This document shows positions 14,122 to 41,293 of a stretch of DNA of 47,561 nucleotides, one piece after another. Numbering within the stretch: position 1 is the first letter of the stretch; every line of letters starts with the position of its first letter. The notes under the pieces were generated by a model that did no database searches, was not told the origin of the DNA, and saw nothing but the letters and a program-made list of their open reading frames with translations. Origin of the DNA: an uncultured Prochlorococcus sp. Its GTDB lineage: Bacteria > Cyanobacteriota > Cyanobacteriia > PCC-6307 > Cyanobiaceae. Location of the stretch: the NCBI GenBank assembly GCA_902534685.1, contig CACAQP010000002.1, positions 1 through 47,561 of the forward strand, read 5' to 3'. Made by a program: the position numbers and the translations under genes.

Positions 14122-14152
14122 ATTTATTGTTTCTGGAGTCCTAAAAATAAAT

Positions 14153-14176
14153 AAGAGGGCATTTATTTGCCCTCTT
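14153..14176 (-). terminator. Strong hairpin with minus-strand U-rich 3' flank
   Basis: AAGAGGGCA-tttatt-TGCCCTCTT (9 bp). Minus-strand downstream flank is ATTTATTTTTAGG; plus-strand flank is not U-rich. Confidence 0.5.
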
Positions 14177-14345
14177 CGAGTCTTATGCACCTCGCTGTCC
14201 ACAAAGTCGATGAAGTGCTATTGACTCCTGAATTATTTATACTCCTAACGAATGGGAAAAGATAGTCGCTACAACCACAAAGCACTAATACTCGGGTATT
14301 AATACTCTATTCATTTCAGTTGAATAAGAGGATAATTAAAGAGTA
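14177..14345 (-). ncRNA. Candidate minus-strand RNA (or degraded short ORF) ending at the 14153-14176 hairpin
   Basis: Long ORF-poor stretch with a minus-strand terminator-like end and internal hairpin TAATAC-tcgg-GTATTA. Confidence 0.25.
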
Positions 14346-14362
14346 GAGATATAGGAGGTTTT

Positions 14363-14521
14363 ATGAGACTAACCACTCCATTCACTGCCCTTAGAAATGC
14401 AACTTCAGATATTTGGAGAATGCATGATTTTAATTATCAACTACCAAAAGATCAAAGACAAGATTATTGGGAAAAAGAATGCAAAGACCACCCAACAAGT
14501 TCTCATTGCAAAGTTTACTAA
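14363..14521 (+). CDS. 52-aa protein with CP12-like C-terminal motif
   Basis: AGGAGG at 14353 plus ATG at 14363: MRLTTPFTALRNATSDIWRMHDFNYQLPKDQRQDYWEKECKDHPTSSHCKVY*; C-x8-C-x2-Y tail as in CP12. Confidence 0.75.
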   Translation: MRLTTPFTALRNATSDIWRMHDFNYQLPKDQRQDYWEKECKDHPTSSHCKVY

Positions 14522-14545: not shown

Positions 14546-14569
14546 AAAAGGCCCTTTTTAGGGTCTTTT
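14546..14569 (+). terminator. Rho-independent terminator after the 52-aa ORF
   Basis: AAAAGGCCCT-tttt-AGGGTCTTTT stem with one G.U pair. Confidence 0.75.
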
Positions 14570-17804: not shown

Positions 17805-19187
17805 TTAATCTAGATCAGGCATTTCTAGAGCTGGTTCACTCTTTCTGTCGATTCCTTTCTCGAAACCAGCAGCGGCAGCTCTAGCACGTCCAGCATGCCA
17901 AAGATGACCGATGAATGTAAACCATCCTAGGAAGAATTGAGCAGCAGCTAACCATTGTCTTAAGTTAACGAAGTTAACAGCATTTGGCTCTGTAATGATT
18001 CCACCAACAGAGTTGATAGAAGCGTTAGGAGCATGAGTCATATATTCAGCAGCTCTTCTTACCTGCCAAGGCTGAATATCATTTTGGATTTTCTCGAGAC
18101 TTAATCCGTTAGGACCTCTTAAAGGCTCTAACCATGGACCTCTGAAATCCCAAAATCTCATCGTTTCACCACCAAATATAATTTCACCAGTAGGAGATCT
18201 CATGAGATACTTACCTAGACCTGTTGGTCCCATTGTTGAACCTACGTTAGCTCCAATTCTTTGGTCTCTCACAAGGAAAGTAAAGCTTTGAGCCTGTGAA
18301 GCTTCAGCATTTGTTGGGCCATAGAATTCTGAAGGATAAGCAGTATTGTTAAACCAGATGAATGTTGATGCAATAAAGCTTGCTACACAAATTCCACCTA
18401 AAGCATAACTAAGTAGACCTTCACCGTTCCATATGAATGCTCTTCTTGCCCATCCAAATGGTTTGGTAAAGATATGGAAAAGACCACCAATTATTGCGGT
18501 AATTCCAACATACACGTGACCACCAACTATATCTTCTATTGAGTTAACACCGATTATTGAACCAGCGCCACCCCAAGGAGACCTAAATAGGTAACCAAGT
18601 ATTACTCTTGGATCTAATGTAGGACTGACTAGCCTAACTTCTCCACCACCAGGTGCCCATGTATCATAAGCGCCTCCAATGAACATCCAATCAAAAACGA
18701 AAAATAATGCACCAACTCCTAATACTATTAAGTGATAACCCAAGATATTAGTCATTTGATTCTTATCTCTCCAATCTGTTGAAAAGAAAGGAAAATCTTG
18801 CTCAAGTTTTTCTGGACCTGCTAAGGAATGATAGATACCACCAAATCCTAAGACTGCAGAAGAAATTAAATGCATCACACCAGCCACAAAGAATGGGTAT
18901 ACATCAGTAACTTCTCCACCAGGACCTATTCCAAACCCAAACATTGCAACATGAGGCATACAAATTAAGCCTTGTTCCCACATTGGTTTATCGAATGTGA
19001 AATGACTAACTTCGAATAACATCATTGCACCGGCCCAGAAAACAATAAGGCCAGTGTGTGCAATATGAGCACCAAGTAAACGGCCAGATAAATTAATTAA
19101 TCTGGCATTACCTACATACCAAGCATAACCAGTTTCTTCAATACTCTGGTTAGGGGCTCTAAGTAAACTATTAAAGGGCGTTTCCAC
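17805..19187 (-). CDS. psbC: Photosystem II CP43 chlorophyll-binding protein
   Basis: [63 protein letters not shown] start overlapping psbD. Confidence 0.98.
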
Positions 19188-41189: not shown

Positions 41190-41284
41190 ATCAGTTAAGC
41201 TTTGAGAGCTTATTTGAAATTTTCATGTAAGGATTAGGTAATTGAGAGAGTGTTTTTAGCTGGGAGACAATCTCTTTTTTTTTC
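41190..41284 (+). ncRNA. Candidate small RNA
   Basis: Intergenic; hairpin TAAGCT-ttgag-AGCTTA at 41196-41212, and GGAGA-caa-TCTCT hairpin followed by a T-tract near 41277-41284. Confidence 0.3.
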
Positions 41285-41293
41285 TCATTAAAA

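Follow-up and report, generated by a model that had tools for sequence, protein, structure and literature searches.

Prochlorococcus is the most abundant photosynthetic organism and has few regulatory proteins. It has been proposed that cyanophage CP12 switches the Calvin cycle off in the course of infection, and CP12–GAPDH structures have the last two residues of CP12 directed into the active site. Of the two Cys pairs of CP12, the C-terminal one belongs to the GAPDH-binding region, and the N-terminal one is close to the PRK site (PMC8151241). Mutants of the C-terminal Cys pair of Synechocystis CP12 fail to complement, and loss of Gap2 binding is what the authors expect (PMC9623430). That a CP12-type tail can work by itself, apart from the remainder of CP12, is illustrated by the plant GapB extension (PMC3838966), and phage CP12 is believed to shift the carbon flux of its host (PMC3906501, PMC7760959). 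A small Bacillus protein, SR1P, is reported to act on GapA in trans (PMC8152036), a likeness of description, not of sequence; it comes from another bacterium and has another role, RNA degradation. The protein family analysed here resembles CP12 in being small, cysteine-paired and present in both cyanobacteria and cyanophages, and in having the same C-terminal C-x3-P-x4-C-x2-Y-x2-end tail, of which the clade under study lacks the last two residues.

We analysed a window (the whole stretch of DNA, 47,561 nucleotides) of Prochlorococcus-type picocyanobacterial DNA, identified as such by same-genus matches and by psbC/psbD-like genes at 17.8–20.2 kb. The features of the locus are:

14143–14362, plus strand: conserved leader of the ORF, containing the inverted repeat AATACTCGGGTATT (alignment of 66 orthologous upstream regions)
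14353–14358, plus strand: AGGAGG ribosome-binding site, 4 nt 5′ of the ATG (from the sequence; conserved in the 66-sequence leader alignment)
14363–14521, plus strand: 52-aa protein MRLTTPFTALRNATSDIWRMHDFNYQLPKDQRQDYWEKECKDHPTSSHCKVY (ORF; orthologues; dN/dS about 0.15)
14363–14437, plus strand: N-terminal module, residues 1–25, M-[KR]-L-x2-P-F...SDIW-x-MHDFNY (alignment; tail-less phage ORF)
14465–14518, plus strand: CP12-like C-terminal tail, residues 35–52, YWEKECKDHPTSSHCKVY (superfamily alignment; PDB profile search; hhalign; 166 tails)
14480–14482, plus strand: Cys40, first Cys of the proposed redox pair (invariant in the tail alignment and the 166 tails)
14507–14509, plus strand: Cys49, second Cys of the proposed redox pair (invariant in the tail alignment and the 166 tails)
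14546–14569, plus strand: terminator-like hairpin (RNA fold −13.9 kcal/mol, z −2.45)

The ORF, with its ATG at 14363 and stop codon at 14519–14521, is as described in the initial annotation, which also noted the AGGAGG ribosome-binding site, and its claim that the gene has its own terminator agrees with the folding of the hairpin. A consensus terminator scan did not include this hairpin among its predictions, probably because the T-run is interrupted. A rhomboid-like gene lies downstream of the ORF on the same strand.

The 52-aa ORF is a real, strongly conserved Prochlorococcus gene under purifying selection. When 99 genomes were searched with the protein, most of those from the same genus had a full-length orthologue. 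The known carriers are most high-light Prochlorococcus genomes, several low-light ones and one cyanophage clade (the high-light and low-light labels were deduced here from the grouping and size of the genomes). The gene is not universal, being missing from some near-complete genomes. Contigs in GTDB hold 186 relatives, and the 80 of these that were listed all come from Prochlorococcus or Synechococcaceae single cells. In the neighbourhoods of these 80, the rhomboid-like gene is present at 73 loci, ferredoxin-like and cobQ-like genes at 67 each and an iron-transporter-like gene at 65; the TPR gene that adjoins the ORF in the window is found at only 3. Among 67 distinct 52-aa alleles, mean dN was 0.048 versus a dS of 0.33 (dN/dS about 0.15), and variable sites at codon positions 1, 2 and 3 numbered 23, 22 and 44, respectively.

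We collected 94 distinct family proteins, all with both Cys; the search pattern demanded the Cys, so this set cannot by itself prove their invariance, and the unbiased support for their conservation comes from the unselected 99-genome matches and the selection test. Both Cys were kept in every unselected match that was read (99 genomes, GTDB and IMG/VR). Orthologues with the conserved Cys, Pro and Tyr, whose absence the initial annotation had regarded as fatal to its proposal, are indeed present among the 99-genome and GTDB matches, the 94 proteins and the set of 166 tails described below. Scans with Pfam, NCBIfam and PHROGs gave no assignment for the window protein, and the family is apparently undescribed, with no name in these collections or in the searchable literature.

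As seen from the alignment of the 66 orthologues, about 220 nt 5′ of the ORF are unusually conserved, the stretch noted being 14143–14350 of the window. This leader is probably a promoter and 5′ UTR, or else a small RNA; an Rfam scan gave no match at the locus of the ORF, leader included. The conservation would also fit a leader and short ORF that act mainly as a dual-function RNA or leader, with the peptide secondary. We consider this very improbable, given the dN/dS of the coding sequence, the strong ribosome-binding site in the copies read and the low-light and phage orthologues, in which the flanks differ and the protein is the same.

Judged by its sequence, the window protein belongs outside the CP12 family. 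The Pfam CP12 profile (PF02672) gave no match to it at E≤10. As had been claimed, the N-terminal Cys pair is absent (there is no other Cys in the window protein), and so is the AWD_VEE core, from the window protein and from the family proteins listed. The picocyanobacterial CP12s that were read are also without AWD and without the N-terminal Cys pair, yet they match PF02672; this form, lacking the N-terminal Cys pair and found in marine picocyanobacteria, is the closest CP12. Every complete genome tested carries a separate canonical CP12 (CP12 is missing from the assembly of the window, which is uninformative, because this assembly is 55% complete). To describe the protein as a stripped-down CP12 is not apt: it represents a separate family that shares only the tail and coexists with canonical CP12. 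The GapB C-terminal extension is likewise a CP12-type Cys-pair tail alone, a likeness of description, not of sequence; it is fused to GAPDH and acts in cis, whereas in the new family the tail is part of microproteins of its own and its action would be in trans.

The tail of the window protein contains C40-x8-C49 with Pro44, and a Tyr three residues past the second Cys. Thus, of the CP12 motif proposed initially, C-x3-P-x4-C-x2-Y stands, and the preceding part, E-Y/W-x-C, does not correspond position for position; the residue before the first Cys is Glu (W-x-x-E-C) in the window protein and Tyr or Phe in CP12. The superfamily tail consensus is [YF]W-x2-E-C-x3-P-x4-C-x2-[YF]-x2-end. We gathered 166 distinct tails by a pattern that fixed the positions of the two Cys, P/S and Y/F. 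Before the first Cys, [YF] at −5 and W at −4 each occur in 165 of the 166, and E at −1 in 158; after it come H/N/Y at +3, Pro at +4 (165/166), T/S/A at +5, K/L at +10 and V/I/L at +11, and both Cys are present in all. The pattern allowed up to three residues after Y/F, and the chain ended either at once (59/166) or after exactly two (107/166), one or three never being seen. The 59 tails ending at Tyr or Phe are those of the high-light 52-aa clade, the window included; low-light, 54-aa and phage members have the two-residue end, which is mostly CD, DD, EV, DE or ED, often acidic, and low-light orthologues end in CKVYDD. A third Cys near the C-terminus (YCD end) occurs in many members.

The CP12 tails that were read follow C-x2-N-P-[DE]-x2-E-C-R-[VIL]-Y-[DE]-[DNE]; their first Cys is preceded by Y or F. 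CP12 has Glu before the second Cys, where the family has mostly His, Asn or Thr, and NP[DE] where the family has HP[TS]; the family has a Trp at −4 of the first Cys. CP12 ends in YDD, YDN or YED, and the two-residue ends of the family are often acidic likewise. The N-terminal half of CP12 differs from that of the family.

The similarity to the CP12 tail, as far as sequence comparison goes, is real, extends over about 16 residues and is compatible with descent or convergence. We built a tail profile from tail proteins only, with no CP12. Among 177,635 PDB sequences it matched just two up to E 10, namely the CP12 peptide in 3b1j/3b1k, at E 0.011, and that in 3zdf, at E 0.12. Alignment of the tails with CP12 tails by hhalign was column for column, with a probability of 92.6% and a score of 25.4, compared with a maximum of 16.9 and a mean of 8.1 in 200 column shuffles. 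In a search of 145 cyanobacterial genomes, three matches outside picocyanobacteria reached E≤0.01: two were CP12 proteins, and the third, a short frame, looks like a chance match. Within the taxonomic family of the window, the canonical CP12 of many genomes was also matched, over tail columns 12–26 only (E about 0.01–0.04); these E-values are modest because the shared stretch is only about 16 residues long. The resemblance to the CP12 tail noted in the initial annotation thus withstood the PDB profile search, the hhalign comparison with shuffles and the 145-genome search.

It is also conceivable, if unlikely, that the tail arose by convergence, as a small hairpin that forms a disulfide or binds a metal and lacks any CP12-like action, in a structural or stress microprotein. 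The shortness of the shared stretch and the third Cys adjoining the C-terminus of many members are in line with this, as is the PF02672 cut-off (22.7 bits), which no superfamily member scanned reaches, the best scoring 14.7 bits. It fits poorly with a column-by-column similarity well over that of shuffled controls, with the PDB and other cyanobacterial genomes having independently yielded CP12 as a match, and with a chain end that agrees with that of CP12.

The weaker matches of the 99-genome search are several other short proteins whose N-terminal halves differ (for example MKLFNQFNILPRYLTAFNYAG..., MALNDTFTIQ... and MNLKTSPFAIQDKKLRDLD...) and whose tail is common. This superfamily has from 1 to about 6 copies per Prochlorococcus genome. 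Within the taxonomic family of the window, the tail profile finds members in nearly all small, Prochlorococcus-sized genomes, often several in each, and matches in a few larger genomes resembling marine Synechococcus. At some loci two tail genes lie within a few kilobases. The N-terminal modules are conserved within, and specific to, each family. An AlphaFold2 model from 26 family sequences, of low confidence (pLDDT 60, pTM 0.24), has helices at residues 6–21 and 29–42, and the N-terminal module of the 52-aa family (residues 1–25) is possibly an amphipathic helix.

Several variants were seen on the side. A branch of about 70 aa, probably from low-light Prochlorococcus, has an extra internal Cys pair, C-x11-C, before the CP12-like tail; it has four Cys, as does CP12, at a different spacing. 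In several same-genus genomes the 54-aa version adjoins a gene that is conserved, encodes about 172 aa (M.LKFCPTTIFRETPKVTFFDAG...) and looks cupin-like, and in some genomes other tail genes are found near these two. Genomes of 2.3–2.7 Mb, probably marine Synechococcus, encode small proteins whose tail, YWxxxCxxxPxxPGCKIYxx, is related and whose N-termini are not; in further genomes of this size, again probably marine Synechococcus, the matches are CP12-like proteins.

The family is also carried by phages. In IMG/VR, 32 contigs have relatives, one of them of host type. The phage proteins are 44–51 aa long, and at the loci examined the gene lies 3′ of regA and hsp20; the phage copies read are also preceded by an AGGAGG ribosome-binding site. 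In a tree built on only 54 columns, the phage proteins form one group adjoining the high-light host clade (support 90/77), and the grouping of phage with high-light proteins is supported at 99/92. The 51-aa homologue in P-TIM68, gp144, is annotated merely as hypothetical, and this phage carries both the microprotein and CP12. Searched against ten phage records, the tail profile matched the phage CP12 of every cyanomyovirus and, apart from these, only the microprotein of P-TIM68. Cyanophage CP12 (PHROG 627) is also phage-borne and small and has the same kind of tail; it has a CP12 body (PF02672 over the cut-off), whereas the phage copy of the new family is the short protein adjoining hsp20. Two other superfamily branches were tested, and neither was found in viral contigs. 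In P-SSM2-type phages, an unannotated ORF after hsp20 has the N-terminal module (MKLTSPFSIIKNAISDLKRV...) and no Cys tail. PMED4_15491, a small ORF from Steglich 2008 that is homologous to PSSM4_181 and PSSM2_278, was set aside as a family member; in P-SSM2 and P-SSM4 the tail profile finds only CP12.

A microprotein with a CP12-like tail and no PRK-binding half would most simply be a GAPDH-only redox ligand. We propose, giving it somewhat less than an even chance, that the window protein is a microprotein under redox control, with a tail that docks on GAPDH as the tail of CP12 does, and that it does not recruit PRK; the latter would follow from the lack of the CP12 N-terminal loop and of the AWD_VEE core. 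We infer the formation of the disulfide, the binding to GAPDH, the choice of GAPDH as target and the direction of the effect. In darkness, stress or phage infection, the two tail Cys would be oxidised to a disulfide, and the oxidised tail would fold into the short loop that CP12 forms at its C-terminus. This loop would insert in the coenzyme/active-site cleft of the Calvin-cycle GAPDH and slow or titrate the enzyme; in the light, thioredoxin would undo the tail disulfide and the docking. With their variable N-terminal halves, the paralogues of the superfamily may each have a second partner or a location of their own.

Docking on GAPDH is favoured by the PDB matches, all of them GAPDH-bound CP12 peptides, by the hhalign score, by the near-invariant Pro and the CP12-like two-residue end of the tails, by the precedents of the CP12 Cys pairs and of the GapB extension, and by phage carriage, P-TIM68 having a CP12 as well. 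Against it stand the altered residues around both Cys, the end at Tyr in the clade of the window, the common third Cys and the modest E-values. The first three of these make retargeting a serious rival, which we regard as somewhat less likely than docking on GAPDH: the tail would be related to, or derived from, that of CP12 and would form a redox disulfide loop, each paralogue binding another enzyme (a phage target, say, or a different NAD(P)-dependent dehydrogenase) for which its N-terminal half would give the specificity. Several tail positions that differ consistently from CP12, the two terminal residues lost in the clade of the window, the several diverse paralogues per genome and the conserved, family-specific N-terminal modules agree with retargeting, and there is a precedent in CP12-CBS fusions, whose CP12-like regions were modelled as unable to bind GAPDH (PMC3906501). 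The CP12 spacing and an end two residues past Tyr, kept in all other families, and the restriction of the PDB matches to GAPDH-bound CP12 speak against retargeting.

It is possible, and we suggest it only tentatively, that picocyanobacteria and their phages use a tail-only CP12-like repertoire with interchangeable N-terminal modules on one redox-sensing, GAPDH-docking tail to adjust or divert carbon flux without involving PRK. If so, phages would have in their copy a further inhibitor of the Calvin cycle, in addition to phage CP12, and the superfamily an added layer in the control of ocean carbon fixation and its viral hijack. The proposed function is directly testable with short peptides. NirP1 was dropped as a candidate, as it has a single absolutely conserved Cys and, according to its authors, no Prochlorococcus homologues (PMC10907346).

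Elsewhere in the window, Rfam matched IsrR at 18590–18773 (plus strand), antisense to the psbC-like gene, a match that psbC/isiA homology alone may explain, with no real antisense RNA, and the small RNA Yfr19 at 41208–41290 (plus strand), barely over the gathering score.
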